This document shows positions 23,766 to 45,126 of a stretch of 64,000 bases of DNA, one piece after another. Origin of the DNA: Dietzia sp. NCCP-2495 (GTDB lineage: Bacteria > Actinomycetota > Actinomycetes > Mycobacteriales > Mycobacteriaceae); contig NZ_BRVN01000009.1 of the NCBI RefSeq assembly GCF_026011735.1, positions 62,001-126,000 of the forward strand, read 5' to 3'. A model generated the notes under the pieces. That model was not told the origin of the DNA and did not search any database. It saw only the letters and a program-made list of their open reading frames with translations. A program made the translations under genes and the position numbers. How positions within the stretch are numbered: the first letter of the stretch is position 1; the number at the start of each line of letters is the position of its first letter.

Positions 23766-23841
23766 CGAAATCCGCTACTCTCCCTGCGGATCCGCTACCC
23801 CTATTGACGTAGCGGATCTGGATTCCGAGTAGCGGATTTCG
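23766..23841. repeat. Palindromic tetrad repeat, family 1, copy 1
   Basis: Outer arms CGAAATCCGCTACTC and GAGTAGCGGATTTCG are perfect 15-base inverted repeats; inner arms GATCCGCTAC (23789-23798) and GTAGCGGATC (23809-23818) are also perfect. It sits 40 bases past the crp stop and 30 before the end of the converging AbiEi-like gene. Copies 2-4 are at 25173, 35781 and 45055. Confidence 0.9.
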
Positions 23842-23871
23842 TGATTTTGCGGGCGGACACGGGGCGTTAAC

Positions 23872-24939
23872 TCAGGCCGCGCGCACCGAACCGAGGCGCT
23901 CCTGCTGGCGCATCGCCGCTCTGACCTGCCGAATGACATTGCCCGGCCGGTAGATGTCCTCCCAGGTCCACCGGAGGACGACATAGCCCTCCGCTTCCAA
24001 CTGTGCCTGTCGGTGCCGTTCCGCGATCCAGTTCTTGCGGATCTCCTCCGGGCTGCCGCCGTATTTGCCGAACCCATCGGCCTCCCCGATCAATCCCCAC
24101 TTGCGCCAGTAGAAGTCAACGCGAAACCGTTGCCCGGTCCGGACACCCAACCCGACCTGCAGCTCAGGCGCCGGGAGTCCGCCCAGGACGATGATGAGTC
24201 TAAGGAGCGATTCCAGCACCGATTCGGCGAGCCCGGAGGCGAGGTCGGGGAGCTGACGAGCCCGGGCCACTCCCGTCCGGCCGCGTGCTGCTTCCGCCTC
24301 TCGCCGCAGGTCAGTCGTGGTACACAGCTGCATTCGGATCGCCGCGTCGGCGGCGCACACTCCACTGTCCAGGCCTACGGTCCGAGCGACATCGATGACC
24401 GACCGGGCAGGCGACGTCACCGGGACGCCGTCGACCTCGGTCACGACGCCGTCGAGCGGCAGGTTCGAGCAGGTGAGCGCCGTACTACGGCGGGACCCTC
24501 CGCCCGGCCGATGCCGGGTCACGGTGGGCAGCTCGAGCGGCACTCCGTGAAGCGGGAGGCCGTGCAGCGCCAACGCAGAGCCATGGGAGAACACCGTTCC
24601 CGGCTGGATCGACAGTGCCGCCGCCCGGGTGCGGGCGAGGAACTCATTTTCACGCCGCTTGTACGGGGGCACGCCGTCGCCCGAGACCGCCTCCGCCTGG
24701 GTGCCGGTGTTCTGGCCTGCGCCGCTTCTGCCGTCGGCGCCGGTGCTGGTGCTGGTGCTGGCGACCTGGCCGGTGCTGATTACCTGGCCGGTGCGCGCAT
24801 AGACACCGTGGCGGTACCTGATCAGATCCCCGGTGGAGATGAGGCGAGCGATGTCAGCGTGCGTCAGGCCTCCCCTCTCCAGATCGGCGAACGTCGAGAA
24901 CTCGGGGAATGAGGGCGCGTCAGAGTTGGATCCGGTCAT
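23872..24939 (-). CDS. AbiEi-type winged-helix plus DUF559 nuclease-fold protein
   Basis: 355 residues. The N-terminus (FADLERGGLTHADIARLIST, then GDLIRYRHGVYA) is the AbiEi antitoxin-type wHTH; the middle resembles AbiEi_3 (FSHGSALALHGLPL, VTSPARSVIDVAR); the C-terminus (GLIGEADGFGKYGGS, then AERHRQAQLEAEGYVVLRW) is DUF559, related to Vsr endonucleases. Such proteins are frequent in actinobacteria, often without a toxin; none is adjacent here. A low-complexity STGQVASTSTSTG insert lies near residue 57. It interrupts the crp-MBL neighbourhood of M. tuberculosis and is bracketed by repeats at 23766 and 25173. ATG 24939 chosen; the open frame upstream is Arg-rich non-coding. Confidence 0.8.
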   Translation of the reverse strand: MTGSNSDAPSFPEFSTFADLERGGLTHADIARLISTGDLIRYRHGVYARTGQVISTGQVASTSTSTGADGRSGAGQNTGTQAEAVSGDGVPPYKRRENEFLARTRAAALSIQPGTVFSHGSALALHGLPLHGVPLELPTVTRHRPGGGSRRSTALTCSNLPLDGVVTEVDGVPVTSPARSVIDVARTVGLDSGVCAADAAIRMQLCTTTDLRREAEAARGRTGVARARQLPDLASGLAESVLESLLRLIIVLGGLPAPELQVGLGVRTGQRFRVDFYWRKWGLIGEADGFGKYGGSPEEIRKNWIAERHRQAQLEAEGYVVLRWTWEDIYRPGNVIRQVRAAMRQQERLGSVRAA

Positions 24940-25172
24940 GGTCGGCAGTGTTCCCGATCCTGCTAACAGCTTCGGCGCAAATCGGGGTGCATTTGCCTTG
25001 GTCTGTGGAGGTGTGCGGGCCTGTGGAATTCGTCGGCGACGCTCACCGGGCGGGACTCGACGGCGCTCACGAATGGCACGCGGCACCGCGCACCGCCTGG
25101 CCTCCGCGCCGCGCACTGCCAGCGCCGCACACCGCCAGGACTCACAGGCGCCCCAGCGGCAGCCAGATCTGA

Positions 25173-25246
25173 AAAATCCGCTACCCGCAATGCGGATCCG
25201 CTACCGCTCTAGGGGTAGCGGATCCGCAGGGAGAGTAGCGGATTCC
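25173..25246. repeat. Palindromic tetrad repeat, family 1, copy 2
   Basis: Inner arms TGCGGATCCGCTACC (25191-25205) and GGTAGCGGATCCGCA (25214-25228) are a perfect 15-base inverted repeat around GCTCTAGG. Outer arms AATCCGCTACCC and GAGTAGCGGATTCC are partly matched. It lies 3' of the MBL gene and 5' of the AbiEi-like gene. Confidence 0.9.
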
Positions 25247-25261
25247 GGGGAAGCGGATTCG

Positions 25262-25281
25262 GGGAGGGAGGGAGGGAGGGA
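25262..25281 (+). repeat. (GGGA)5 tract, G-quadruplex-forming
   Basis: Five GGGA units immediately before the MBL stop codon complement (25283). On the C-rich side it would be transcribed at the MBL mRNA 3' end. Confidence 0.75.
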
Positions 25282-25282
25282 G

Positions 25283-26116
25283 TTAGGGGTCGCGGCGGTC
25301 GAGGTAGCGGAGCGCCACCTTGGTCGACTGCTCCGCGACCTTGAGCAGGAACGGCGAGACGTCGCGGTAGATGTGCTGCGTGATCGCCTCGGCGTCGGCA
25401 TCGCGGCCCAACTCTGCGCGCGCGGCGATGATCTGGTCCAGCCGATCCCGCCGGTGCTGGCCGAGGACCTGGGCGGCGCGGCCGGTGTTCTCGACGTCCG
25501 GCCCGTGACCGGGGATCCCGATGACCCCGTCGGCGCGGGCGGCGAGGCGGTCCATGCTATCCAGGTAATCGCCGAGGTCGCCGTCGGTCGAGTCGAGCAC
25601 CGTGGAATCCCGGCCCAGGATCGTGTCGCCCAACACCACACAGTCGGCCGGCGCGGTGAAGCCGGTCCCCGCGGAGCGAACCTCCAGGCTCACCGAGTCA
25701 GCAGTGTGACCCGGCGTGGCCAGCACGATGATGTCCAGACCGGCGGCGTGCACCTCGTCGTCGTCGACCAGTGGTTCGGCATCACGGCAGAAGCGCTCCT
25801 CGACGGCTCGCACGGGCGCCGGGGTGAACTCGCGCAGCAGGTCGATGCCGTCGGTGTGGTCGCCATGACGGTGCGTGACGAGGATCAGTTCGATCTCGCC
25901 CACGATGGCGGCGATGCGCTCGGCATGCGCGCGGTCGTCGGGCCCGGGGTCCACGACCACACAGGTCGTCGACCCCGGCGCCCGCAGGACGACCGTGTTG
26001 GTGCCCTCGAACGTCATCTCCGACGGGTTGTCGCAGAGGATGACCCCCGCGAGAGAGGTGACCGGGCGCAGCGTCTCGTACGCCGGGAACTCGATCGGGG
26101 ACAGACCTGCAGACAC
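25283..26116 (-). CDS. Metallo-beta-lactamase-fold hydrolase (LACTB2-like, Rv3677c-type)
   Basis: 277 residues. The zinc motif THRHGDHTDG (HxHxDH), then LATPGHTADS, VVLGDTILGRDST and GIPGHGPDV supply the second-site ligands. MTFEGTNTVVL near the N-terminus and the helical C-terminal part match LACTB2/RNase-type MBL proteins rather than beta-lactamases. Likely a hydrolase or endoribonuclease; substrate not predictable. GTG at 26116; 5 bases after the RidA stop, in the DUF4177-ridA-MBL operon. Confidence 0.85.
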   Translation of the reverse strand: MSAGLSPIEFPAYETLRPVTSLAGVILCDNPSEMTFEGTNTVVLRAPGSTTCVVVDPGPDDRAHAERIAAIVGEIELILVTHRHGDHTDGIDLLREFTPAPVRAVEERFCRDAEPLVDDDEVHAAGLDIIVLATPGHTADSVSLEVRSAGTGFTAPADCVVLGDTILGRDSTVLDSTDGDLGDYLDSMDRLAARADGVIGIPGHGPDVENTGRAAQVLGQHRRDRLDQIIAARAELGRDADAEAITQHIYRDVSPFLLKVAEQSTKVALRYLDRRDP

Positions 26117-26121
26117 GGTGA

Positions 26122-26601
26122 CTACCCCTCGACCTCGACGATCAACTCGACCTCGACCGGGGCATCGAGCGGCAGCTCCGACACCCCGACGGCCGACCGG
26201 GCGTGGACCCCGGCGTCGCCGAAGATCTCCCCCAGCACATCGGACGCGCCGTTGATCACGGCCGGCTGTCCGTTGAATCCCGGGGCCGAGGACACGAAGC
26301 CCACGACCTTGACGATCCGTACCACCGCGTCGATGCCCACGAGTCCGTCGACCGCGGCGAGCGCGTTGAGCGCACAGGCCCGCGCCAGCTCGGCGGCACG
26401 CTCCGGCGTGACCTCCGCACCGACCTTGCCCGTCGCGGCCAGCGCACCGTCGATCACGGGCAACTGGCCCGAGGTGTACACGTACGCGCCGGTCCGCACC
26501 GCAGGCGCGTAGTTGGCGACCGGCGGCACGACCGTCGGCAGCTCCAGACCCAGCTGCTCGAGCTTGCGGGACCAGTAGCCGCCCGCCTCGGTCTCGCCCA
26601 T
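26122..26601 (-). CDS. RidA family enamine/imine deaminase-like protein
   Basis: 159 residues of YjgF/YER057c/UK114 type (Rv3678c position). Fold features: TGAYVYTSGQLPV, LNALAAVDG, VVRIVKVVGFVSSAPGF and VGVSELPLDAPVEVELIVEV. The Arg of the active RidA signature (R105 in E. coli, in A-R-x-x-V) appears in HARSAVGVSELP. It may remove reactive enamines from PLP enzymes. The ATG overlaps the DUF4177 stop (TGATG). Confidence 0.88.
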   Translation of the reverse strand: MGETEAGGYWSRKLEQLGLELPTVVPPVANYAPAVRTGAYVYTSGQLPVIDGALAATGKVGAEVTPERAAELARACALNALAAVDGLVGIDAVVRIVKVVGFVSSAPGFNGQPAVINGASDVLGEIFGDAGVHARSAVGVSELPLDAPVEVELIVEVEG

Positions 26602-26771
26602 CAGAACTGACGCTTCAGATAGGCGACGTGCTGCTCGCCCGTGGGACCGGGCAGCACGGAGACCAGCTCCCAGCCGTCGGCACCCCAGGTGTCGAGGATC
26701 TGCTTGGTGGCGTGCGTGAGAAGGGGAACGGTCGAGTACTCGAACCGGGGACGGTCAGTGGCTTCGCTCAT
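26601..26771 (-). CDS. DUF4177 small protein
   Basis: 56 residues: RFEYSTVPLLTHATKQILDT, then WGADGWELVSVLPGP and a basic C-terminus. The Trp-Gly-x-x-Gly-Trp-Glu-Leu pattern is the DUF4177 signature; M. tuberculosis has the short Rv3678A here. ATG at 26771 lies 7 bases from TACAGT, so the three-gene operon mRNA is probably leaderless. Function unknown. Confidence 0.8.
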   Translation of the reverse strand: MSEATDRPRFEYSTVPLLTHATKQILDTWGADGWELVSVLPGPTGEQHVAYLKRQF

Positions 26772-26778
26772 ACCCACC

Positions 26779-26784
26779 ACTGTA
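26779..26784 (-). promoter_or_regulatory. -10 box of the DUF4177-ridA-MBL operon, leaderless
   Basis: TACAGT on the minus strand, 7 bases from ATG 26771. Confidence 0.55.
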
Positions 26785-26912
26785 GGTAAGCCGCACCGGA
26801 CCTGCGACCAGACCTCCGGCGGGACCGGGGACCGGACCTCCAGCGAGCGTCGCGACCCGAGCAGCATTCGACCGCACACAGGGAGTCCCCCGCGCGCGGC
26901 AGGTGATGACCT

Positions 26913-26918
26913 TAGGCT
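26913..26918 (+). promoter_or_regulatory. -10 box of bagAB, leaderless
   Basis: TAGGCT, 7 bases before ATG 26926. Confidence 0.5.
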
Positions 26919-26925
26919 GGAGCGT

Positions 26926-27981
26926 ATGCCGACCACTGAGAGTCCGGGCCGCCAGGTGCCCCGGCCCACCATCGCTGACGATCTGTCGACCGGCTGGTCC
27001 GCCGACGCGGCGCGTGCCGACCTGCACTACGTGTCCGGGAAGGGCGGGACCGGCAAGACGACGGTCGCTGCCGCACTCGCGCTCTCGCTGGCGTCGACCG
27101 GCAAGAAGGTGCTCCTCGTGGAGGTCGAGGAGCGGCAGGGCATCGCCCGGATCTTCGACCGCTCCCCGCTGCCGTACCGCGAGGAGCTCGTCGCCCGGGT
27201 CGACGGAGGTGGCCGGGTCTACGGCCTCGCGATCGACATCGAGGCCGCGATGCTCGACTATCTCGACACCTTCTACCACCTCGGCGTGGTGGGCAAGGTC
27301 ATGAAGTCGGTCGGCGCGATCGAGTTCGCCACGACCATCGCGCCCGGCCTCAAGGACGTGCTGCTGACGGGGAAGATCTACGAGGTCGTCTCCCGCGAGA
27401 AGTCCAAGAAGGAGGTCGTCTACGACGCCGTGGTGGTGGACGCCCCGCCGACCGGCCGGATCGGCAAGTTCCTCGACGTGACCACCGCGATGGCCGACCT
27501 CGCCGGAGGTGGTGGTCCGATCCGTCGCCAGGCCGAGGCGGTGTCCGCTCTGGTGCACTCCGAGCGCACCGTGGTGCACCTGGTGACGCTCCTGGAGGCG
27601 CTGCCGGTGCAGGAGACCATCGAGGCGATCGCCGAGCTCGAGGGCCACGGGCTGCGCCTGGGCCAGGTGATCATCAACCGCGCCGCGACCCGGTACCTCG
27701 ACGACGCCGCGCTCGAGCGCGTCGCCGAGGAGGACGTCGACGCCGAAGCCGTACTGGCGGGCCTGGAGGCCGCCGGTGTCGAGGTCGACGACGAGGGACT
27801 GCAGGGACTCCTGGTGGAGACCATCGAACACGCGCGCGTCGCACGCGGTCAGCTCAACGCCGGCCAGACGCTCACATCGGCCGGATGCCCCACGCTCGTC
27901 CTGCCCGCACTGCCCCACGGTGTCGAGGTCACCGACCTGTACGACCTCGCCTCCGCCCTCGTCGACCAGGGAGTCCGCTGA
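26926..27981 (+). CDS. bagA: ArsA/Get3-like ATPase, BagA-type
   Basis: Cytosolic P-loop ATPase. [21 protein letters not shown] is the deviant Walker A with signature Lys; [14 protein letters not shown] and [20 protein letters not shown] are switch regions. No arsenite-binding Cys pair, so an arsenic role is unlikely. Rv3679-Rv3680 (BagA-BagB) form a complex linked to glycerol and nitric oxide tolerance in M. tuberculosis; the same tandem pair sits beside whiB4 here. bagB starts two bases after the stop. Confidence 0.88.
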
Positions 27982-27982
27982 T

Positions 27983-29092
27983 ATGGCCGGCCGTCTCGAT
28001 ATCGCCGCACTGCTCACCGATTCCAAGACCCGAGTGGTGGTGTGCACCGGCGCCGGCGGAGTGGGTAAGACCACCACCGCCGCGGCCGTCGGACTCCGCG
28101 CCGCCGAACTCGGCCGCCAGACCGTGGTGCTCACCATCGACCCTGCCCGCCGGCTCGCCCAGGCCCTCGGGATCGACGAGCTGTCCAACGAGCCCTCGCC
28201 TGTCGACCTGGACCCCGAGTACACCGAGGCCGGCGGATCACTCCACGCGATGATGCTCGACATGCGCCGCACCTTCGACGAGCTGGTGACCGCCAACACC
28301 ACGCCCGAGAAGGCCGAGTCGATCCTGGGTAATCGCTTCTACAAGACGATGGTCACCTCCTTCGCCGGGACGCAGGAGTACATGGCCATGGAGAAGCTCG
28401 GGCAGCTGCTCGACGATTCGACCTGGGACCTCGTCGTCGTCGACACCCCTCCGTCCCGCAACGCACTCGACTTCCTCGACGCCCCAAGCCGACTCGGGGC
28501 GTTCCTCGACAGCCGGCTCATGCGGCTGCTGTCCGCGCCCGGACGCGGCGTCGGGCGGCTGGTGACCGGCGCGATGAGCACCGCGATGCGCGGCGTGTCC
28601 ACGGTCGTGGGGTCCTCCATGCTCGCCGACGCCTCCGAGGTGGTGGTGGCGCTGGACTCCACGTTCGGCGGGTTCACGGCCCGCGCCGCCCGCACCCAGG
28701 CCATCCTGCGCCGCAAGGGCACCGAGTTCCTGGTGGTCTCCTCCGCCGAGCGGCCCGCACTGCGGGAAGCCGCGTTCTTCGCCGAGCGACTGGCCGAGGA
28801 GAACATGCCGCTCTCGGGCGTCGTGATCAACCGGACGCACCCGCGACTGTCCGACCTCAGTGCCGAGCAGGCGGGGTCGGCCGCGGACCGGATCGCCGAC
28901 GCCCATCCCGAGGCCGGGGCGGTGCTCCGCATCCACGAGGACCGCGCGCGCACCGCACGTCAGGAGCTGCGACTGCTCGAGTCGTTCACCGACACGCACC
29001 CGGACGTGAAGATCGTCGGTGTGCCGTCGCTGCCGTTCGACATCTCCAATCTGGAGGCCCTGCGGTCGGTGGGCGACCAGCTCTGCGGCTGA
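27983..29092 (+). CDS. bagB: ArsA/Get3-like ATPase, BagB-type
   Basis: 369 residues. [21 protein letters not shown] is the deviant Walker [15 protein letters not shown] and [18 protein letters not shown] are the conserved ArsA-family switch motifs; VVINRTHP follows. A hydrophobic/Gly-rich central helix region ([18 protein letters not shown]) resembles the client-binding groove of Get3-like proteins. Co-translated with bagA; the pair probably forms a heterodimer. Confidence 0.88.
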
Positions 29093-29276
29093 GCGGGGGC
29101 CGGGCTGGGGTCGGGGTCTGGCCGGGCAGTCTGGCCGGGCTGGGTTCTGACCCGGCATGGTCGGGGTCGGGTCTGGCCCGGCCCGGGACGGGCTGACCGC
29201 CCGAGGCGTGCCGAAATGCCGGACGCGGCCCCAAGCGTCAGCTGCGGACCGCGTGTGCGGTCACAACAGGTCAGTC

Positions 29277-29333
29277 GGCCGGCGCCGGCGCCGGCGCTGG
29301 CGCCGGCACTGGCGCCGGCACTGGCGCCGACGA
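29277..29333. repeat. GGCGCC-rich tandem repeat between bagB and whiB4
   Basis: CCGGCGCCGGCG passes into repeated CTGGCGCCGGCA 12-mers. The remaining 29093-29276 is G-rich with imperfect GTCTGGCCGGGC repeats and no gene. It lies between converging genes and may act as a terminator. Confidence 0.7.
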
Positions 29334-29349
29334 CGGTGGATGCCGGTGG

Positions 29350-29727
29350 TCAGTAGACCGTGGAGTGACGCTCGATCTGCTGGGCGAAGAAGTCCGCCCA
29401 GGACCGAACCTCGGGATGCTGCTTGAGCAGGGCGCGACGCTGACGCTCGGTCATACCGCCCCACACGCCGAACTCCACGCGGTTGTCCAGCGCGTCGGCA
29501 CGGCACTGGAGCAGTACCGGGCAGTGACGGCAGATTGACGCGGCCTTGCGCTGAGCTGCTCCACGGACGAACAGCTCGTCTGGATCGATGTCCTTACACC
29601 GGGCCTGAGAGACCCATTCCTGGCGCCCCTCCCCGATGATCGTCTCCTCGGAGCCCAGTGGATTGCTTGTTCCGGGGCGGACCCCGTTGTCGGAGGAGCG
29701 GGAAGTCCCGGGAAGGGTGGCCGTCAT
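29350..29727 (-). CDS. whiB4: WhiB-family iron-sulfur regulator, WhiB4-type
   Basis: 125 residues. Cys44, Cys66, Cys69 and Cys75 (C-x21-C-x2-C-x5-C) bind the [4Fe-4S] cluster; EFGVWGGMTERQRRALLK is the turn and DNA-binding region. Placement between bagB and ponA2 matches whiB4 (Rv3681c), a redox sensor in M. tuberculosis. ATG at 29727 has AGGGG nine bases upstream. The N-terminal 35 residues are disordered. A CRP-like site lies in the divergent region upstream. Confidence 0.9.
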   Translation of the reverse strand: MTATLPGTSRSSDNGVRPGTSNPLGSEETIIGEGRQEWVSQARCKDIDPDELFVRGAAQRKAASICRHCPVLLQCRADALDNRVEFGVWGGMTERQRRALLKQHPEVRSWADFFAQQIERHSTVY

Positions 29728-29894
29728 CGATTTACCCCTGTCTGCATGGAACCGCGAGCGATCTCCTCGCACACGGCTCCGGCCTTCTGGACCCACCCGG
29801 CGCGGCAGGCCCACCGTGTCCGCCGGGTCTCCCTCGGGACCGACACTGTGATGCCGGTCTCATTTCCGGGGAAAACCCGCGCGTTCCCTCATAT

Positions 29895-29910
29895 TGTTAC
29901 CGCAGTCACA
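29895..29910. promoter_or_regulatory. CRP/GlxR-like site between whiB4 and ponA2
   Basis: TGTTA-CCGCAG-TCACA, one mismatch to TGTGA-N6-TCACA. 168 bases from the whiB4 start and 78 from ponA2. Confidence 0.55.
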
Positions 29911-29974
29911 CTACGGAAGTAAAGAGTTGGATCCGGAACCGGCCGCGACGGGTGGCCACGTGGGGGTGGTCACG

Positions 29975-29980
29975 TACCCT
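29975..29980 (+). promoter_or_regulatory. -10 box of ponA2, leaderless
   Basis: TACCCT, 7 bases before GTG 29988. Confidence 0.45.
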
Positions 29981-29987
29981 TGGGCGC

Positions 29988-32378: not shown

Positions 32379-32394
32379 GTCGGCGCTTCGACGG

Positions 32395-32400
32395 TAAGCT
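32395..32400 (+). promoter_or_regulatory. -10 box of metallophosphoesterase gene, leaderless
   Basis: TAAGCT, 6 bases before ATG 32407. Confidence 0.55.
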
Positions 32401-32406
32401 GACCAG

Positions 32407-33399: not shown

Positions 33400-33450
33400 C
33401 CCGATTTCGCGATTCAGGGACGAGGGCGCTAGAGTATCCATCGTTGTCAC

Positions 33451-33524
33451 CGGGGTATGGCGCAGTTTGGTAGCGTGCTTCGTTCGGGACGAAGAGGTCG
33501 TGGGTTCAAATCCCGCTACCCCGA
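33451..33524 (+). tRNA. tRNA-Pro(CGG)
   Basis: 74 bases. Acceptor CGGGGTA pairs with TACCCCG; anticodon stem CTTCG/CGAAG holds loop TTCGGGA with anticodon CGG; GGTTCAAATCC forms the T arm. Discriminator A; CCA is not encoded. Confidence 0.95.
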
Positions 33525-33530
33525 CAATGA

Positions 33531-33570
33531 GAAGTCCCAGGTCACTTCAGTGACCTGGGACTTCTGCTTT
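33531..33570 (+). terminator. Rho-independent terminator of tRNA-Pro
   Basis: Perfect 16-base stem GAAGTCCCAGGTCACT with its complement around TC, followed by TGCTTTTTTC. The only hairpin with a clear T tract I found here. Confidence 0.95.
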
Positions 33571-33631
33571 TTCATCGTGGCGTCGGCCACCTCTCGGCAG
33601 TTTTCCGACCCACTGCCTCCCGCGTCATCCG

Positions 33632-33637
33632 TAAGGT
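33632..33637 (+). promoter_or_regulatory. -10 box of acyl-CoA oxidase-like gene, leaderless
   Basis: TAAGGT, 6 bases before ATG 33644. Confidence 0.55.
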
Positions 33638-33643
33638 CTGGGT

Positions 33644-35728: not shown

Positions 35729-35780
35729 CCCTGGCTACGCCGGTCCCCGCCCAGCATCCCGAGCCACCCGCAGGCCTCAG

Positions 35781-35853
35781 GAATCCGCTACTCCCCCTCC
35801 GGATTCGCTACCCCTAGAGCGGTAGCGGATCCCCAGGGGGAGTAGCGGATTTC
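35781..35853. repeat. Palindromic tetrad repeat, family 1, copy 3
   Basis: Outer arms AATCCGCTACTCCCCCT (35782-35798) and AGGGGGAGTAGCGGATT (35835-35851) are perfect 17-base inverted repeats; inner GGATTCGCTACC (35801-35812) and GGTAGCGGATCC (35821-35832), one mismatch. Between two converging genes. Confidence 0.9.
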
Positions 35854-35876
35854 GGCGAGTCTGAGCGGACGGCGGT

Positions 35877-37469: not shown

Positions 37470-37475
37470 GCCGGG

Positions 37476-37481
37476 AGCGTA
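37476..37481 (-). promoter_or_regulatory. -10 box of YhgE-like gene, leaderless
   Basis: TACGCT on the minus strand, 6 bases from ATG 37469. Confidence 0.5.
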
Positions 37482-37675
37482 ACGCCTGCTGCCCAGCATC
37501 GCCGCAGGTCACCCGGCATGCCCTGAGATCGATGTCAGAGCCGCCTGTTAAACTACTGCACGACAGGTCACACTCGGACGGTTCGCCCCGGAGCCGCCCA
37601 GGTGTGACGCGCACGACCAACTCTGACGCGCCCTCGGCGTCCGAGCCCGTGTGACGTGGCCATCGGAAGGAGCTC

Positions 37676-40600
37676 ATGAGCGCCGCCCTCGCGATCGCCT
37701 CGGCCGGATCGGCAACCCTGCTCGCCTGGCCGTTGACGCGGTGGCTCGGACGTGGCGCCGGGTGGCCGCTCGCGGCCCTGTATCTCCTCGGCGCGCTCGC
37801 GTTGATGCCGCCGCTCTCCCTGGCACTGATGGATGAGCCGGTCGAGATCGAACGCATCCCCTGGGTCCCCGCCCGCGACTGGACCCTGGACCTGTTCGCC
37901 GATCCCACCGGACTGTTCTTCGCGATGCTCGCGCTGCTGATCGGCGCGATCGTGCTCATCTACTCCACCGCGTATCTGCCCGGACGCACCGGAGATCACG
38001 ACGGTGGAGCCGGTGGAACCGGTGGACCCGGTGGACCCGGCGAGCGGAAACCAGGCGAGCGGGAACCGGGTGAGCGGGGACGCGGCGACCGAGGACGCGG
38101 TCCCACCCACTACGGCTTCTACCAACTCATGACCCTGTTCACGGTGTCGATGCTGGGACTGGTCCTCACGGACTCACTGATCTTGCTCTTCGTCTGCTGG
38201 GAACTGACGTCGCTGGCGTCCTTCGCGCTCATCGCGAACTCCGGGCGCACCGCGTACGCGCCGTCCCTGCGCACGCTGATCGTGACGTTCGCCGGCGGGC
38301 TCGTCCTGCTCGCCGCAGTGGTGGCGATGTGGCTGCGGACCGGCACCACGTCGATCTCGGAGATCCGGGTGCACGAGGTGTGGGCGACGGATCCGGGCTT
38401 CACCTCGGCGATCGCGGTCTGTATCGCGGTGGCCGCCTTCACCAAGTCGGCCCAGTTCCCGTTCCACTTCTGGCTGCCCGACGCGATGGCCGCCATCACT
38501 CCGGTGAGCGCGTACCTGCACGCCGCGGCGGTGGTCAAGGCCGGCATCTTCCTGCTCATGCGGTTCTCGCCGATCTTCCACGACGTGGCCGTGTGGAACG
38601 TCCTGCTGGTGACCTTCGGGATGGGCACGGCGGTCATGGCGGCACTCTTCGCGCTCCAGAAGACCGACCTCAAGCAGCTCATGGCGTACTCGACGGTCAG
38701 CCAGCTCGGCTGGATCATCGCCACGATCGGTATCGGCACACAGGCCGCGCTCGCCGCGGCCGCACTGCACACTCTCGCGCACGCCCTGTTCAAGTCGGGC
38801 CTGTTCATGCTGGTCGGCGTGGTGGACCACGAAGCCGGATCGCGGGACATCCGGGACCTGGGTCCGATCTGGCGGCGCATGCCGTGGACTTTCGGCGCCA
38901 CGGTTCTCGGCGCGGCGGCCATGGCCGGCATCCCACCCACCCTGGGGTTCGTGTCCAAGGAGTCGATGCTCACCGCGTTCGGCGAGGTCGCGGGCGGTCA
39001 TGCCGGCGCCGCCACCGCACTGCTGGTCGCGGCCGTGATCGGCGCAATCCTCACGTTCCTCTACTGCGCCCGCATCATCACGGGCGGGTTCCTCGGCTTC
39101 TACCGCCGCGAGGACGGTGCCGCCGGATCCGCGTCCGTTGCCGATGTCCACGAGGCCCCGGTCAGGTTGTGGCTCCCGGCCGCGCTGCCCGCGGTCATCG
39201 GACTGCCGATCGCGCTGGTCGTGGGGATCCTCGACGCTCCGATGGCGGCCATCGCCAAGGCTGCAGCCGGACCGTTCGGGTGGCCGCCTCTCGAGCGAGG
39301 CTTCGCCGAGTACCGGGCCCTGCCCGCCGATGTCGACCCGGCGGAACTCGAGTACGAGCCGCACCTCGCACTGTGGCACGGCCTCAACCTCGAACTCGGG
39401 CTCACCGCGCTCATTCTGATCGTCGGCGCTCTTCTCGTCTGGCAGCGCCGCATCCTGGACCGGGCGCTCGCCCGCGACCTCTTGCCGTTCACCGGCGCGG
39501 GCCTGCTCGAGTCCCTGGTGCGCGGCACCGCTCGCGCCGGTCGACAGTTGCGCCGCCCCACCGCGTCGGACTCCCCCGCCCGACACGCCGGCGCGCTCAT
39601 CGCCACCGTCTGCTTCTACGGCGCCGGGATCGGGGCGTGGTCCGCGGTCACCGGCACCGTACTGCCGCCGCAGGTCGGAAACCTCAACCGCACGATCGAC
39701 CTGGTCCTGCTGCTCGTGGTGACCGTCTCCGTCATCGGCCTGTGCGCGGCGCGCTCCCGACTGGCGTCTGTCGTCCTTCTCTCGGCGGTCGGCATCGCAG
39801 TGACCATCCAGATCTTCGGCCTCGGCGCCCCGGACGTCGGCCTCACCCAGCTGCTGGTCGAGGCGTTGACCATCATCGTGTTCATGCTGGTCCTGAGGCG
39901 GCTGCCGAAGGATTTCATCGAACCGACGCGGGCCCGGCACACCGCCGCGATCGTGCTGGGTGTGGCCTCGGGGATCGCCGCGACGGCCGCCGTCCTCGTG
40001 TTCAGCGGCCGCCGCGAGCGGTCGCCGATCGGCACGTACCTGTTGGAGCAAGGACCGGAGATCACGGGCGGCAGCAATGTCGTCAACACGATCCTCGTGG
40101 AGTTCCGTGCGCTCGACACGTTCGGCGAGGTCTCCGTGCTCGGCGTGGCCGGCATCGCGATCCTCGCGGTGCTCGGTTCGGTCCGCAGCCGCGCCGGTGG
40201 GGACACGCCACACAATCAAGACGACGACTTCCTGCCCGGCATCGCGCGGGCGGCCGGTGAGGCCGAGTCCGCCCTCGAGGACGCCACCCGCAACACCGTG
40301 CCGCTACGCATGTTGTCCCGAGCCGTGTCACCGGTGCTCATCGTGGTCTCGCTACTCCTGTTGTGGCGCGGGCACAACGAACCCGGCGGAGGCTTCATCG
40401 CCGCGCTCGTCGCGTCGTGCGCGTTCGCCATCTACTACCTCTCGCGGGAATCGGACTCCCCGGTGAGCAAGCCCTCCACCCCCGTCGCATACATCGGCGG
40501 CGGGCTCCTGTTGGCCGGTCTCACCGGCATCGGCGGTTACGCCCTGGGCGAGTTCCTCGAGCCCGCCCAATGGCACGTGCTCGGCCAGCACATCAGCAGT

Positions 40601-40735
40601 GCCCTGTTCTTCGACCTCGGTGTCTTCTTCGGCGTGGTGGGCCTGGTCATGACCGCCTTCAACACCCTTGGTTCCAGCGGGACTGCCGCTGACGCCGTGC
40701 CCGAGACCGACCTGACCGAGGAGGCGAGCCGATGA
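37676..40735 (+). CDS. mrpA: Mrp Na+/H+ antiporter subunit A fused to subunit B
   Basis: 1019 residues. The N-terminal two thirds are a proton-pumping NuoL-like subunit (LFVCWELTSLASFALI; then KSAQFPFHFWLPDAMAAITPVSAYLH; LMAYSTVSQLGWI); the C-terminal part includes MbhE/MnhB-like sequence (WRGHNEPGGGFIAALVA, then LGVFFGVVGLVMTAFNTLG), so mrpB is fused and no separate mrpB follows. A 40-residue Gly/Arg/Glu insert (near residues 101-142) is unusual. RBS GGAAGGAGCT suits ATG 37676. First gene of a seven-gene operon for Na+ export and pH homeostasis. Confidence 0.95.
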   Translation: MSAALAIASAGSATLLAWPLTRWLGRGAGWPLAALYLLGALALMPPLSLALMDEPVEIERIPWVPARDWTLDLFADPTGLFFAMLALLIGAIVLIYSTAYLPGRTGDHDGGAGGTGGPGGPGERKPGEREPGERGRGDRGRGPTHYGFYQLMTLFTVSMLGLVLTDSLILLFVCWELTSLASFALIANSGRTAYAPSLRTLIVTFAGGLVLLAAVVAMWLRTGTTSISEIRVHEVWATDPGFTSAIAVCIAVAAFTKSAQFPFHFWLPDAMAAITPVSAYLHAAAVVKAGIFLLMRFSPIFHDVAVWNVLLVTFGMGTAVMAALFALQKTDLKQLMAYSTVSQLGWIIATIGIGTQAALAAAALHTLAHALFKSGLFMLVGVVDHEAGSRDIRDLGPIWRRMPWTFGATVLGAAAMAGIPPTLGFVSKESMLTAFGEVAGGHAGAATALLVAAVIGAILTFLYCARIITGGFLGFYRREDGAAGSASVADVHEAPVRLWLPAALPAVIGLPIALVVGILDAPMAAIAKAAAGPFGWPPLERGFAEYRALPADVDPAELEYEPHLALWHGLNLELGLTALILIVGALLVWQRRILDRALARDLLPFTGAGLLESLVRGTARAGRQLRRPTASDSPARHAGALIATVCFYGAGIGAWSAVTGTVLPPQVGNLNRTIDLVLLLVVTVSVIGLCAARSRLASVVLLSAVGIAVTIQIFGLGAPDVGLTQLLVEALTIIVFMLVLRRLPKDFIEPTRARHTAAIVLGVASGIAATAAVLVFSGRRERSPIGTYLLEQGPEITGGSNVVNTILVEFRALDTFGEVSVLGVAGIAILAVLGSVRSRAGGDTPHNQDDDFLPGIARAAGEAESALEDATRNTVPLRMLSRAVSPVLIVVSLLLLWRGHNEPGGGFIAALVASCAFAIYYLSRESDSPVSKPSTPVAYIGGGLLLAGLTGIGGYALGEFLEPAQWHVLGQHISSALFFDLGVFFGVVGLVMTAFNTLGSSGTAADAVPETDLTEEASR

Positions 40736-41115
40736 CCCTCGCGATCACGATCGGCATCCTCACCGGAGGTGGCGTCTACCTGCTGGTCCAGCGCGGCATG
40801 GTCCGCGTGGTGTTCAGCCTCGGCCTGATCAGTCATGCCGTCAACCTCCTGTTGCTCAACGCCGGGGTGAGCGCGTGGCGTAGCGAGCCGCTGACCCAGT
40901 TCAACGACCCGGCCGTCGCCGCGGACCCGTTACCGCAGGCATTCGTCCTCACCGCGATCGTCATCACGCTCGCGGTGACGGTGTTCATGCTCTCGCTGGC
41001 GGTGGTGGGGCGCGACGACGACACGCACCTCATCCCGGACACCGGAACGGACGCCTCGCCCGGCGCTGATGTGGCCATGGGTACGCACCGCGACGACAGG
41101 GAGGGCGAAGCATGA
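40732..41115 (+). CDS. mrpC: Mrp antiporter subunit C
   Basis: 127 residues, three membrane helices, NuoK-like. GGVYLLVQRGMVRVVFSLGLISHAVNLLLL (two halves: GGVYLLVQRGMVRVVFSL and GLISHAVNLLLL) and DPLPQAFVLTAIVITLAVTV are typical MnhC sequence. C-terminal tail is hydrophilic (about 92-127). ATGA overlap with mrpA and mrpD. Confidence 0.94.
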   Translation: MTLAITIGILTGGGVYLLVQRGMVRVVFSLGLISHAVNLLLLNAGVSAWRSEPLTQFNDPAVAADPLPQAFVLTAIVITLAVTVFMLSLAVVGRDDDTHLIPDTGTDASPGADVAMGTHRDDREGEA

Positions 41116-42704
41116 TCGGTCTGCTCCTCCCCCTGCTCGCCGCGATCCCGGTCATGTCCGCGGCCGTGTCAGCCGTGTCCCCGTGGCGCTCCGTCGGCCG
41201 GGTGCTCGCCCTGGCCGTCCCCCTCGCCACCGCGCTCGCGGGACTCGGCCTGCTCCTGCTCCACCGGGACGAGCCCGTGGTGGTCGCGCAGGTCGGCGGG
41301 TTCATCCCCGGCGTGTCGATCCCGATGGTCTCCGACGCGTTCACCGCGATCATGCTCATCACCACCAGCCTCGTGGCAGGGCTGGCCCTCGCCTTCTGCC
41401 TCGTGACCGGGGAGTTCGCCCGCAACCGGTACTTTGCCCCGCTCGCGTTGCTCCTGCTCGCCGGCGCGAACGGCGCGATCCTCACCGGGGACCTGTTCAA
41501 CCTCTTCGTCTTTGTCGAGGTCATGCTCCTGCCCTCGTACGCCCTCATCGCCATGACAGGAACGTGGCGCAGACTCGGCACGGGTCGACTGTTCGTGGTG
41601 GTCAACCTCCTCACCTCCACCCTTCTGCTCGCAGGTGTGGGCTTCGTCTACGCGACCGCCGGGGCGGTGAACCTCGCGGCCCTGGCCGGAGCGGCGGGTG
41701 AGGACGGCCGGGTCGCCGCAGCGCTGGGCATCGTGATCATGGCGCTGTGCATAAAGGCCGGCGCCGTACCCGTCCACGGCTGGCTGCCGCGCGCCTACCC
41801 CGGCACCTCGGCAGGCGTGATGGCACTGTTCTCCGCGCTGCACACCAAGGTCGCCCTGTACGCGATCATCCGGATCTGGTCCACGGCCTTCGACCTCGAC
41901 CCGGCCTGGGGCCGCGTCCTGCTGGTGGTCGCGCTCGTCACCACCCTGTGGGGAGCGCTTGCCTCCGCCGGCCCGCGCGACGTCCGCGAGATCCTCGCCT
42001 GGCAGATGGTCTCCGGTATCGGCGTGATCCTCGCCGCGCTCGCGGTGGCCTCGGCGCCCGGCGGGTCGATCGTCTACATGCTCCACCACATGGTCACCAT
42101 GGGGGCGCTGATCATGCTGGTCGGCGCCGCAGAGCACGTCTATGGCAGCGGCCGACTCGGCCGGTTGCGGGACCTGTGGCGCCTCGAGCGACCGCTGGCC
42201 GTGCTCCTGGTCCTCGCGATCGCCGCCCTCGTCGGACTGCCTCCCACCTCGGGACTGGTCGGCAAGCTCGAGGTCCTGTCCGCCGCCCTCGACCCCGGCA
42301 CACCGTGGGGGGTCGTCACCGTCGTCGTCGTCCTCCTGTCGTCCCTCATCGGCTTGGTCGCCATGCTGCGGTTGTGGCGCGGCACGATGTGGCGCGACGC
42401 CGCGGACGAGCCCAGTGGCGGCAGCACCGCCGACCCAGACGACGAAGACCGGAAGAACAACGAGGACGACGACACCGTCGGCCCGGACACCCACCCCGCC
42501 GAACGGTCGCGGATCCCCGCACGCCTACTCGTTCCGGGCGGAGTGCTGGTAGCCGTGTCGGTCGCCATGTTCCTCGGCTACGGCGCGATCGCCCCGGAGA
42601 TCGACCGCGCGGTCGCGGGACTGGTCGACACCGACACCTACGTGCAGACGGTGCTCGGCGGCCCCGACGCGTTCACCGAGACGACGATCGGAGGTCGGTC
42701 GTGA
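41112..42704 (+). CDS. mrpD: Mrp antiporter subunit D
   Basis: 530 residues, NuoM/NuoN-like with about 14 helices. LFNLFVFVEVMLLPSYALIA carries the conserved membrane Glu; KAGAVPVHGWLPRAYPGT and ALHTKVALYAIIR the conserved Lys/His. A charged cytoplasmic insert (DPDDEDRKNNEDDDTVGP, about 437-456) breaks the C-terminal part. Overlaps mrpE (GTGA). Confidence 0.94.
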   Translation: MIGLLLPLLAAIPVMSAAVSAVSPWRSVGRVLALAVPLATALAGLGLLLLHRDEPVVVAQVGGFIPGVSIPMVSDAFTAIMLITTSLVAGLALAFCLVTGEFARNRYFAPLALLLLAGANGAILTGDLFNLFVFVEVMLLPSYALIAMTGTWRRLGTGRLFVVVNLLTSTLLLAGVGFVYATAGAVNLAALAGAAGEDGRVAAALGIVIMALCIKAGAVPVHGWLPRAYPGTSAGVMALFSALHTKVALYAIIRIWSTAFDLDPAWGRVLLVVALVTTLWGALASAGPRDVREILAWQMVSGIGVILAALAVASAPGGSIVYMLHHMVTMGALIMLVGAAEHVYGSGRLGRLRDLWRLERPLAVLLVLAIAALVGLPPTSGLVGKLEVLSAALDPGTPWGVVTVVVVLLSSLIGLVAMLRLWRGTMWRDAADEPSGGSTADPDDEDRKNNEDDDTVGPDTHPAERSRIPARLLVPGGVLVAVSVAMFLGYGAIAPEIDRAVAGLVDTDTYVQTVLGGPDAFTETTIGGRS

Positions 42705-43033
42705 TCATGCGGATCCTGCGGGCACCCCTGCTGCTCGGGTGGCTGCTGTGGCACGTCGTGTTGTCGTCGTGGGCGTTGGCCGTCGCCACTCTGGGCCCCG
42801 GCCCCGTCGGCTCACCCGTCCTCGTGCGGTACCCGATGCGGAGTCGGACCGATCTCGAGGTGACCGTCCTGGCGTGGGCCATCACGTTCACGCCGGGCAC
42901 GCTCGTGACCGTCATCGGCGAGACGGACCTGTGGGTGCACGTCGTGCTCGGCGGACCCCGCGAGGAGATGATCGAGATGCTCGCCCAGACCGAGGACCGC
43001 ACGCTCGCCGTGCTCCGAGGAGGCACCCCATGA
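42701..43033 (+). CDS. mrpE: Mrp antiporter subunit E
   Basis: 110 residues. An N-terminal hydrophobic hairpin, then RSRTDLEVTVLAWAITFTPG TLV, the MnhE signature, and a soluble C-terminus. GTG 42701 follows GGAGG by six bases; ATG 42707 is an alternative. Shorter at the N-terminus than many MnhE proteins. Confidence 0.9.
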   Translation: MIMRILRAPLLLGWLLWHVVLSSWALAVATLGPGPVGSPVLVRYPMRSRTDLEVTVLAWAITFTPGTLVTVIGETDLWVHVVLGGPREEMIEMLAQTEDRTLAVLRGGTP

Positions 43034-43302
43034 GTCCGTTGCTCACCGTGCTGCTCGCCGTGTCGACCGTGATCGTCGCCGCCAGCATGCTGGTCGCCGC
43101 GTTCCGCGCCTTACGGGGGCCCGGCGACGCCACCCGGGCCGTGATGGCCGACCTCACCTACTTCTGTGCCGTCGCCCTGTTCGTGATGTTCGTGATCCGG
43201 TCGGGCTCGGCCGTCGCTCTGGACGTGGTGATGCTCGGCTCGCTCATCGGCGTGCTGTCGACCGTCGCCCTGGCGCGGCTGCTGTCGAGAGGCCGGAGGT
43301 GA
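43030..43302 (+). CDS. mrpF: Mrp antiporter subunit F
   Basis: 90 residues, three helices. FRALRGPGDATRAVMADLTY is the MnhF core (usual form RxxxGPTxxDRVVAxD), followed by ALDVVMLGSLIGVLSTVALARLL. Overlaps mrpE by ATGA and mrpG. Confidence 0.92.
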   Translation: MSPLLTVLLAVSTVIVAASMLVAAFRALRGPGDATRAVMADLTYFCAVALFVMFVIRSGSAVALDVVMLGSLIGVLSTVALARLLSRGRR

Positions 43303-43307
43303 CCGCC

Positions 43308-43658
43308 GTGGACTCGACGCTCCTCACGGACCTGCTCATCGGTGTCCCCGCACTCCTCGGGTCGCTGTGTTTCCTGGTGGCGGCGATGTCTATGACACGT
43401 GCCCGCGATGCGCTGACGCGCATCAACATCCTGTCCGTCGCCACCGGGCTCGGCATGATGCTGTTCATCGTGACCGCCTACGTGCACGAACTCGCAGGCG
43501 GCTTCCGCTGGATCGGGCTGATCATGGCGCTGGTCGCCCTGTCCGCGACGGTCGTCGTGACCACCGTCGCGTCGATCACCCTGGCCCGCGCCGCCTACCG
43601 TGCCGACCCGCATCTCGATCCGCGGACCGCGTACGACGACCTCGCCGACGAGGGGTGA
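43308..43658 (+). CDS. mrpG: Mrp antiporter subunit G
   Basis: About 116 residues, three helices. GSLCFLVAAMSMTRARDALT RINILSVATGLG is the MnhG core (usual GLLRFPDxxxRxHAAT). GTG 43308 is preferred because GGAGG lies eight bases before it; GTG 43299, overlapping the mrpF stop, is the alternative. Confidence 0.9.
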   Translation: MDSTLLTDLLIGVPALLGSLCFLVAAMSMTRARDALTRINILSVATGLGMMLFIVTAYVHELAGGFRWIGLIMALVALSATVVVTTVASITLARAAYRADPHLDPRTAYDDLADEG

Positions 43659-43659
43659 C

Positions 43660-45024
43660 TTGAGCGACCAGCCGAGCGGGTTCCGCGATCCCGCGCTCGC
43701 GGAACACCACGTCGACTCCCTCATCGACACCGGCGACCTCCACGCCGCCGCCGGAGCACTGAACGCGATGCCGCCGTGGCTGGTCGTGGACGTTCTCGAG
43801 CGGACCCCGGCCAGGGAGCGGGCGGTGATGTTCCGCCTCCTGTCCAAGGAAACCGCGAACGCCGCGTTCGAGGCCCTCGACCCGCCCCTGCAGTCGGAGT
43901 TGATCCACGACCTGCACGACGAGCGCGTGCGCGAGATCTTCGCCGAGCTCGACCCCGACGATCGCGCCGGACTCATCGACGAGTTGCCCGCCAGGGTCGC
44001 CACCAGGTTGATGCGGGAGCTCGATCCCGAGGAACAGGCCCTCACCGCCGAGGTCCTCGGTTATCAGGACGGATCCGTCGGGCGCCGCATGAGTCCCGAG
44101 TACCTGTCCACCCACCCCGACACCACGGCCGGGCAGACCCTCGAGCGGGTCCGGCAGCGGATCGACCAGACCGAGACGATCTACGCGCTGCCCGTCACCG
44201 ACCACGACCGGAAACTCGTCGGCATCGTCGGACTGCGGTCGGTGATGAAGGCCGACCCGGACACTCCGATCCACGACCTCATGAACGACGCGGTGTCCGC
44301 GCGGGCGACCGAGTCGGAGGAGCGGGCGGCCCGCCGATCTGCTGATGAGCGGTTGATCGTGCTACCGATCGTCGACGCCGAACACCGCCTGGTCGGCATC
44401 CTCACCTTTGACGACGCCCTGCAGATCCTCGAGGACGCCGAGTCCGAGGACTCCGCCCGCCAGGGTGGTGCTGAGCCGCTGCGCCGGCCGTACCTGTCCA
44501 CTCCGCTGCGCAGCCTCGTGCGCTCGCGCGTCGTCTGGCTGCTCGTGCTGGCCCTGGGCGCCACGCTCACCGTCCAGGTGTTGGAGGTGTTCGAGTCCAC
44601 CCTCGAGCAGGTGGTGGCGCTGTCGCTGTTCGTCCCGCTGATCATCGGCACCGGAGGCAACACCGGGAACCAGGCCGCCACCACCGTGACCCGCGCGCTC
44701 GCCCTGGGTGACGTGCGGAAGCGGGATGTCGCGCGGGTCCTCTGGCAGGAGGCCCGCACCGGGTTCACGCTCGGCGTCATCCTCGGCGGCGTCGCGTTCG
44801 CGGTGGCGAGCCTGGTCTACGGCATGGACTTCGGGCTCGTGATCGGGCTGACCATGGTGGCGCTGTGCACGATGGCCGCGTCGGTGGGCGGGATCATGCC
44901 GCTACTCGCCAGCGCCGTGCGCGCGGACCCGGCCGTGTTCTCCAACCCGTTCATCTCCACGTTTGTCGACGCGACGGGCCTGATCGTGTACTTCCTCATC
45001 GCCCGCGCGGTGTTGGGACTGTAG
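43660..45024 (+). CDS. mgtE: Magnesium transporter MgtE
   Basis: 454 residues. The N domain of helical repeats (RLMRELDPEEQALTAEVLGY), two CBS domains (about 140-265) and five membrane helices with PLIIGTGGNTGNQAATTVTR and the pore segment ending PAVFSNPFISTFVDATGLIVY. The start is TTG 43660, one base past the mrpG stop, with GAGGGG four bases upstream; no ATG or GTG fits. It appears co-transcribed with the Mrp antiporter, an arrangement I do not recognise as standard. Confidence 0.93.
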   Translation: MSDQPSGFRDPALAEHHVDSLIDTGDLHAAAGALNAMPPWLVVDVLERTPARERAVMFRLLSKETANAAFEALDPPLQSELIHDLHDERVREIFAELDPDDRAGLIDELPARVATRLMRELDPEEQALTAEVLGYQDGSVGRRMSPEYLSTHPDTTAGQTLERVRQRIDQTETIYALPVTDHDRKLVGIVGLRSVMKADPDTPIHDLMNDAVSARATESEERAARRSADERLIVLPIVDAEHRLVGILTFDDALQILEDAESEDSARQGGAEPLRRPYLSTPLRSLVRSRVVWLLVLALGATLTVQVLEVFESTLEQVVALSLFVPLIIGTGGNTGNQAATTVTRALALGDVRKRDVARVLWQEARTGFTLGVILGGVAFAVASLVYGMDFGLVIGLTMVALCTMAASVGGIMPLLASAVRADPAVFSNPFISTFVDATGLIVYFLIARAVLGL

Positions 45025-45054
45025 CGGCGAGCGCTGCATCCGCCCCCACCCCCA

Positions 45055-45126
45055 CGAAATCCGCTACTCCCCCAGTGGATCCGCTACCCCAAAGGGAGTA
45101 GCGGATCCGCGTGAGGAGTAGCGGAT
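45055..45126. repeat. Palindromic tetrad repeat, family 1, copy 4
   Basis: Outer arms CGAAATCCGCTACTCC (45055-45070) and GGAGTAGCGGAT (45115-45126); inner GGATCCGCTAC (45077-45087) and GTAGCGGATCC (45098-45108), perfect. Between the converging mgtE and katA. Confidence 0.9.

Follow-up and report, generated by a model that had tools for sequence, protein, structure and literature searches.

The window analysed here, a 64-kb stretch of the Dietzia sp. NCCP-2495 genome, holds a gene-plus-two-elements locus bordered on the left by a Crp-type regulator gene (23022..23726, + strand) and on the right by a metallo-beta-lactamase-fold gene (25283..26116, - strand). Between these borders lies an AbiEi-DUF559 gene (23872..24939, - strand) coding for 355 aa from the ATG at 24939 (longest open frame 414 aa, P0001), and it is bracketed by two copies of a palindromic repeat, F1, namely element 1 (23770..23837) and element 2 (25176..25243). 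Element 3 (35783..35850) and element 4 (45059..45126) lie further along the window; none of the four is assigned a strand. The initial annotation had described four elements with one architecture, and this was borne out, since all of them follow the rigid plan ATCCGCTAC-N11-ATCCGCTAC-N10-GTAGCGGAT-N11-GTAGCGGAT, with ATCCGCTAC twice forward and then GTAGCGGAT twice inverted. The 9-mers start at 23770 and 23790 (forward) and 23809 and 23829 (inverted) in element 1, at 25176, 25196, 25215 and 25235 in element 2, at 35783, 35803, 35822 and 35842 in element 3 and at 45059, 45079, 45098 and 45118 in element 4; 15 of the 16 are exact, the exception being that at 35803 with a single mismatch. The units are spaced 20/19/20 in every element. 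The common core is real but measures 68 bp in all four rather than the 72-76 bp first given, and the outer arms do reach 17 perfect bases, as annotated, at 35782. Allowing for one mismatch, ATCCGCTAC occurs 32 times in the window compared with 9.97 (sd 3.16) in shuffled sequence, where none of 100 shuffles reached 32. RNA folding of the eight strands gave z-scores of -8.3 to -10.5, and the only Rfam match at gathering score between 22900 and 46000 was a tRNA (33451-33524), leaving the F1 elements outside any Rfam family.

A pattern search of the genome yielded 29 F1 copies, which excludes a family confined to the four in the window, while the reversed pattern, used as control, yielded 0. The pattern with a loop one longer had no match, and a looser motif scan recovered all four units at 20/19/20 in 26 of the 29 copies. 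We rejected the fixed spacing being an artefact of the pattern, as a free-gap search returned 54 forward matches with gaps of only 10 or 30 among the matches listed. At least one copy was found in 17 of 23 Dietzia genomes; elsewhere in the order, 297 genomes yielded none. A plasmid or phage origin was likewise rejected: F1 had no match in the plasmid and phage collections, and P0001 none in phages. The palindrome scan overlooks a number of F1 copies, and the family counts derived from it are therefore minimum values. In three genomes the origin half of the chromosome holds 15 of 19, 4 of 8 and 13 of 18 copies; we did not rely on this clustering because the species share F1 sites.

Placement relative to genes was scored against codon-based gene calls. 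As annotated, elements 1, 3 and 4 (from 23770, 35783 and 45059) lie between converging genes, element 1 between 23022-23726 (+) and 23872-24939 (-) and element 4 between genes for an MgtE-type transporter and a catalase, and element 2 follows the metallo-beta-lactamase gene 39 bp beyond its 3' end; it precedes the start of the AbiEi-DUF559 gene by 236 bp. Random placement is excluded, for the 29 copies of this genome fall into 16 convergent, 13 tandem and 0 divergent positions versus 60, 196 and 120 gaps of 80-600 bp, respectively. Divergent gaps held none of 72 copies in four Dietzia genomes, a set that omits two of the eight copies of genome G013, and a stop codon was found within 130 bp of 64 of the 66 copies outside genes. 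Such a distribution would be expected if F1 elements were bidirectional transcription terminators needed by converging genes, the repeat being merely a favoured terminator sequence with no dedicated protein, and the strong hairpins would suit this function, as would the other long hairpin that fills the orthologous gap of the AbiEi-DUF559 gene in five species without the gene (G002, G003, G012, G013 and G016). Termination needs no fixed spacer, though, and F1 lengths are rigid. The remaining 6 of the 72 copies lie inside called genes, so the claim that no element is inside a gene stands for the window but not elsewhere; a reading frame is open across the element in all six, which also speaks against terminators. 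Pfam gave no name to the 710-aa frame containing one F1 copy (L059).

Sequence conservation is concentrated in the 9-mers, which are 88-94% identical between 29 pairs of orthologous F1 copies, whereas the spacers are 54-68% identical. The initial annotation had held that the spacers vary and the arms co-vary, as if structure is selected. Spacer sequence does vary but spacer length is fixed, and co-variation is weak: among 109 distinct copies of the genus 62% of spacer positions pair, where arms combined from separate elements average 53% (maximum 56.5%). Within the 29 copies of this genome 60% pair versus 57% (maximum 64%) for swapped arms, inside the null. There is little sign of compensatory change, which comes close to one of the refutations named in the initial annotation, and because the spacers pair so weakly, selection on F1 structure is poorly supported. 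This weighs on the terminator explanation too, which keeps placement (0 of 29 divergent) and hairpin strength in its favour but not structure as the most conserved feature; on balance we regard it as unlikely. Copies from one genome have more similar spacers than copies from different genomes (the difference is 0.074, against a permutation maximum of 0.018), a pattern that, together with the dispersed copies and the presence of some in reading frames, would fit MITE-like non-autonomous remnants of a non-Y1 transposase, with the adjacent AbiEi-DUF559 gene being incidental. Remnants would not be expected to keep their 9-mers at such identity while the spacers of orthologs decay, and we consider this origin very improbable.

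The product of the bracketed gene is predicted to be a DNA-binding (winged-helix), nuclease-like protein. In P0001, Pfam detected AbiEi_1 barely above its cut-off and AbiEi_4 and DUF559 below theirs; PADLOC AbiEi models matched all 10 members of the AbiEi-DUF559 alignment, and REase_MTES_1575 matched one of the 10. DUF559 we take to be a member of the PD-(D/E)XK nuclease fold. Profile comparison gave a weak similarity to the endonuclease-like 3hrl (E 0.005), and the match to the mobile intron protein 3r3p (E 0.5) was not significant. Five genomes (G000, G004, G009, G015 and G020) carry the gene bracketed by F1. In three others the gene was not seen at the orthologous place, yet F1 is present, with 14 copies in G005, 7 in G013 and 18 in G010, whose contig ends inside an F1 element at that place; in G018 the gene is weakly matched and F1 is absent. 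Relatives of the protein (E <= 1e-20) are encoded in 127 of 150 genomes of the order.

We then asked of each relative's locus whether its two flanks share a repeat, counted at 40 bits or more, a line chosen after the data had been seen. The Dietzia set comprised 30 of 47 match rows minus L198, which lacks a left flank, and the set from other genera 29 loci other than our own minus L246 and L256, whose flanks are too short. A shared repeat was found at 19 of 29 Dietzia loci, corresponding to 8 syntenic groups, versus none of 173 control genes and 11 of 1200 placements chosen at random; when the three F1 loci are left out, 16 of 26 are still positive. In other genera 17 of 27 loci (13 groups) were positive versus 7 of 270 mismatched pairs; 10 of 29 and 10 of 27 loci fall short of 40 bits. 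In Tsukamurella and Collinsella 3 of 4 loci had a flanking repeat, and Pfam gave no name to the three proteins scanned from these genera. A tandem lag was significant in 42 of 72 flank segments, at 19-21 bp in 38 of them, and an inverted match in 56 of 72; the other 16 are not clear palindromes, and the flanks of one positive locus without a clear palindrome (L241) align over 406 bp. At one locus of the order (L244) we noted F1-like CCGCTAC pairs 19 bp apart, which may be chance. Across non-syntenic loci, similarity of the proteins did not follow similarity of their repeats (rho 0.02, a value reached in 777 of 2000 permutations), which gives no sign of a general co-evolution of the two. Termination does not account for the gene-specific repeats that flank AbiEi-DUF559 genes on either side, and unrelated repeats flanking this gene family again and again argue against MITE-like remnants.

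Other dispersed families are present as well. In the window, an F2 element (48490..48582, no strand assigned) consists of GCACGACATC twice and then GATGTCTTGC twice at a spacing of 21/41/21, and a second one (55072..55164, likewise) has motif matches at 55072, 55093 and 55155, its remaining inverted unit being degenerate. The F2 motif flanks an AbiEi-DUF559 relative in genome G003 (L200). The flanking repeat of Collinsella occurs at 18 places in one record, and that of Tsukamurella at 19 places in six records, with a further count of 5 places in three records. Two of the five Tsukamurella copies inspected lie between diverging genes, so the preference for gene ends seen in F1 does not hold generally.

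A third alternative is that F1 elements are operators from which an AbiEi-type protein represses its own gene, using the two flanking copies and perhaps looping, with the dispersed copies acting as regulatory, decoy or roadblock sites and no copying activity needed. The copies on both sides of the gene and the four-site plan with a spacing of about two turns would agree with this, and PMC7319586 describes AbiEi and Rv2827c as autoregulating via inverted repeats. The divergent gaps, where operators would act, are nonetheless precisely those without any of the 72 copies, and the 29 scattered copies and those inside genes are left unexplained, which makes the operator reading rather unlikely. Of the three options originally offered (terminator, REP/BIME-like element moved by a RAYT, protein-binding hub), only part was supported: the hub appears to have most in its favour, given the rigid spacing, the free spacers and the predicted winged-helix gene between two copies, and the RAYT was not recovered.

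We lean towards the view that the F1 elements are scattered sites recognised by a single dedicated chromosomal protein, the product of the AbiEi-DUF559 gene that lies between copies 1 and 2. Its winged-helix part would bind the F1 half-sites, about two helical turns apart, its nuclease-like part may cut or nick the bound elements, and repair from another F1 copy would spread and refresh them. Their placement past gene ends would reflect tolerance, and the hairpins may additionally help to end transcripts. The bracketing of the gene by F1 and the separate flanking repeat families of many relatives together point to an undescribed two-part system, organised like REP/RAYT but with an unrelated protein. 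More tentatively, such a system might be widespread in Actinomycetota, with orphan AbiEi-DUF559 proteins each having their own dispersed palindromes of tandem half-sites about 20 bp apart, which the protein would cut and repair would copy, so that gene and repeats would be inherited together. The REP/RAYT way of life would then have evolved a second time, independently, on a restriction-nuclease-like fold. In the open-licence literature we found no paper linking dispersed palindromes with DUF559 or with orphan AbiEi genes and none explaining the very common AbiEi-DUF559 relatives. Since many of its genes are flanked on either side by a repeat family, this protein family gains a testable partner, and the partnership is a possible source of the palindromes dispersed in actinobacteria of high GC content. 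Should the proteins bind or cut the repeats, each paralog would have its own target, and the family would thus be a naturally diversified set of DNA-recognition proteins.

Among known systems, Rickettsia palindromic elements (RPE) are palindromic repeats tolerated in frame within genes, which the in-frame F1 copies resemble; F1 differs in its 68 bp with four fixed half-sites and in the dedicated gene proposed for it. A homing gene interrupts its own target, in contrast to the intact F1 elements on both sides of the AbiEi-DUF559 gene, and the likeness to Vsr-like / EDxHD homing endonucleases and other PD-(D/E)XK nucleases consists of the weak profile similarity to 3hrl. RAYT is an IS200/IS605-like Y1 (HUH) tyrosine transposase, and a REP/REPIN unit is 20-40 bp long with a GTAG (or CGTC) tag at one end. 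Each inverted F1 9-mer starts with GTAG, and F1 as a whole, with its four units, has no asymmetric tag. RPE sequences are also mentioned in PMC3733652. For type IV toxin-antitoxin AbiE, PMC7319586 reports binding of AbiEi and of Rv2827c to 23-bp inverted repeats that occur in pairs; here, too, a predicted winged-helix AbiEi-type protein is found beside paired inverted repeats, but these flank both sides and are dispersed genome-wide, and the C-terminal part of the protein is nuclease-like. In AbiE the operon also includes an AbiEii (DUF1814) toxin gene; none was noticed beside P0001, whose neighbours are the Crp-type regulator and metallo-beta-lactamase-fold genes. Closest in organisation is REP/REPIN-RAYT, for which PMC3116915 and PMC3733652 describe short palindromes in dispersed copies, some on either side of a dedicated gene and some inside genes. 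F1 shares the dispersed palindromes, the gene bracketed by copies, the copies in genes and the occurrence of several gene-specific families per genus; it differs in that each arm is built from a pair of half-sites spaced by about 20 bp, the bracketed gene is of the AbiEi-DUF559 type, and a RAYT/Y1 partner was rejected, as PF01797 was detected in 0 of 23 Dietzia genomes and in 5 of 14 control genomes. The REP/BIME-like organisation first suggested is therefore retained and its transposase is not; if our interpretation is true, repeat/gene partnerships of the REP/RAYT kind would have arisen more than once with unrelated proteins.

All four F1 palindromes in the window (starting at 23770, 25176, 35783 and 45059) share the 68-bp core ATCCGCTAC-11 bp-ATCCGCTAC-10 bp-GTAGCGGAT-11 bp-GTAGCGGAT. 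The window covers positions 62001-126000 of contig C9 in the 3.69-Mb Dietzia sp. NCCP-2495 genome (G000, 64 contigs). A pattern scan of this genome, allowing for up to three mismatches over the 36 specified bases, yielded 29 copies and none of the pattern read backwards, which served as control; by a looser motif scan, 26 of the 29 have all four units at 20/19/20 spacing. F1 is present with at least one copy in 17 of 23 Dietzia genomes, ten of which hold 7 to 29 copies, and was found neither in 297 other genomes of the order nor in the plasmid and phage collections. An exact full-pattern scan of the named genome collection yielded 28 stretches. Dietzia accounts for 27 of them; the other is a 3230-bp contig labelled as a Gordonia MAG (L166), which holds a near-identical copy of the element on G000 contig C28 and, judged by its sequence, is probably a mislabelled Dietzia contig. 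The origin-proximal chromosome half holds 15 of 19 copies in G009, 4 of 8 in G013 and 13 of 18 in G020.

The first two window elements bracket the AbiEi-DUF559 gene (23872-24939, minus strand), which scores just above the cut-off of AbiEi_1 and below those of AbiEi_4 and DUF559. PADLOC AbiEi models match all 10 aligned relatives (REase_MTES_1575 matches one), and the family profile matches 3hrl, an "Endonuclease-Like Protein", with an E of 0.005. Element, gene and element follow each other at the orthologous place in G000, G004, G009, G015 and G020, with diverged elements in G015, while in G008 the gene adjoins the left border gene. Inspection of sequences by eye showed a single diverged element at this place in G006 and G021, a gap without gene and F1 that holds one other long hairpin in G002, G003, G012, G013 and G016, and likewise neither gene nor F1 in G007, G017, G018 and G022. 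In four Dietzia genomes without F1 at this place (L105, L109, L111, L112) a similar long hairpin, AAGAG..GTTCCGC..GCGGAAC..CTCTT, is seen, possibly another repeat family or a common ancestral terminator. Among the matches listed, the gene is found in G000, G004, G008, G009, G015 and G020 and partially in G014, seven carriers with 9 to 29 F1 copies each; F1 without the gene at the orthologous place is found, among the same matches, in G005, G010 and G013 (14, 18 and 7 copies), the G010 contig stopping inside an F1 element there. A weaker match (67%) occurs in G018, which has no F1 copy.

A partnership of the gene with F1 predicts that other family members carry private repeats in their flanks, and the test of this prediction is the result that changed our reading of F1. 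We compared 900 bp to the left with 900 bp to the right of each gene, using a 40-bit line chosen after the data were seen. Out of 47 match rows in 8 Dietzia genomes, 30 loci were taken, of which 29 were testable; 19 reached the line, or 16 of 26 without the three F1 loci. None of 173 ordinary genes did so (maximum 32.8), and 11 of 1200 random placements did, two of them overlapping a family member. The 19 positive loci form 8 syntenic groups, and the flanking repeats differ from group to group. Beyond Dietzia, the order contributed 27 testable loci, of which 17 reached 40 bits, versus 7 of 270 mismatched left/right pairs; the six of these seven pairs that were listed have scores of 416 to 1001 and seem to reflect neighbouring genes in common. 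The positive loci outside Dietzia form 13 groups; the species are not independent, and the group counts (8 and 13) allow for kinship in part. Among four matches in the plasmid collection, two Tsukamurella loci and one Collinsella locus reached the line and one Tsukamurella locus fell below it; with their housekeeping genes, these records appear to be chromosome fragments. Protein similarity did not track repeat similarity between non-syntenic loci.

The repeats often share a pitch. In 72 flank segments of 36 positive loci, scanned at lags of 14-31 bp with 30 shuffles each, a significant inverted match was found in 56 and a significant tandem lag in 42, of which 38 were lags of 19, 20 or 21 bp. 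Several families are also dispersed. An 864-kb sample of the own genome, consisting partly of stretches picked for holding AbiEi-DUF559 family genes or F1 copies, has at least five copies of the GCCTATCGGAT family; two of these adjoin what are presumably the two parts of one further family gene, one part on contig C32 and the other on C21. Palindromes with GCCGTCACTCCGGT arms occur at least four times in the same 864 kb (L218, L220, L233, L266). The Collinsella repeat occupies 18 places in its own 900-kb record and none elsewhere among 72,556 records; the clusters found in 150 kb of this record all lie between genes, to the left and right of the family gene and at two further places. One Tsukamurella repeat occupies 19 places, spread over six records of a single strain, and another five places in three records. 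In the window, the two F2 elements (48490-48582 and 55072-55164), both between converging genes, are arranged forward-forward-inverted-inverted like F1 with 21/41/21 spacing; at locus L200 of another Dietzia, the F2 motif flanks a relative of the AbiEi-DUF559 gene. Within a called gene of the window, positions 14858-15046 contain degenerate 27-bp tandem repeats in five copies that overlap and are in register.

Across 109 distinct F1 copies the outer 9-mers are near-invariant and the spacers variable. Spacers pair within an element at 62%, where swapped arms average 53%; the own-genome values are 60% and 57%, indistinguishable from the null. In the inner 9-mers, most changes affect one side only. 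From this we take selection to act on the 9-mers and their pitch, with the hairpin following from the inversion of the units; most simply, the 9-mers are candidate protein-binding half-sites on double-stranded DNA. In 29 ortholog pairs identity is 88-94% in the 9-mers and 54-68% in the spacers, and in two of three comparisons orthologs are hardly closer than unrelated copies from the same two genomes. Spacer similarity is higher within than between genomes (difference 0.074 versus a permutation maximum of 0.018).

By codon-based calls from a home-made gene caller, 72 F1 copies of four genomes lie 44 times between converging genes, 22 times between tandem genes, 6 times inside genes and never between diverging genes, with a stop codon within 130 bp for 64 of the 66 copies outside genes. 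Own-genome convergent, tandem and divergent placements number 16/13/0 versus 60/196/120 for background gaps of 80-600 bp (864 kb). Among five Tsukamurella copies inspected, two separate converging genes, one separates tandem genes and two separate diverging genes, which makes the avoidance of divergent gaps a feature of F1 that not every family shares. Many F1 places are common to several species, with both flanks matching. The reading frame is open across all six genic copies, which lie in a LysE-type exporter gene in G009 and G020 and in other frames in L059, L089, L094 and L070. At high GC content an open frame by itself says little; the firm case is the LysE-type gene, because the homologous protein continues on both sides of F1. 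By eye, this gene holds F1 also in G004, decayed remnants in G006 and G021, at most a trace in G013 and none in G002; tblastn shows the F1-encoded stretch to be missing from the proteins of G003, G007, G013, G014, G015 and G017.

AbiEi and Rv2827c bind paired 23-bp inverted repeats, according to PMC7319586. The winged-helix part of the AbiEi-DUF559 family may read the half-sites, and the nuclease-like part may cut, with repair-based copying of the elements to follow; we infer these latter steps from the nuclease-like domain at the end of the family's proteins and from the arrival of copies in new places, reading frames among them. We claim the proposed F1/AbiEi-DUF559 system as novel, measured against the open-licence literature. 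As PMC3116915 and PMC3733652 describe it, the REP/RAYT system has an organisation in common with F1/AbiEi-DUF559 but rests on a Y1 protein, in place of which we propose AbiEi-DUF559 as the partner of F1. A search of the 23 Dietzia genomes found no Y1 protein, and the F1 system thus works like REP/RAYT without being a member of it.
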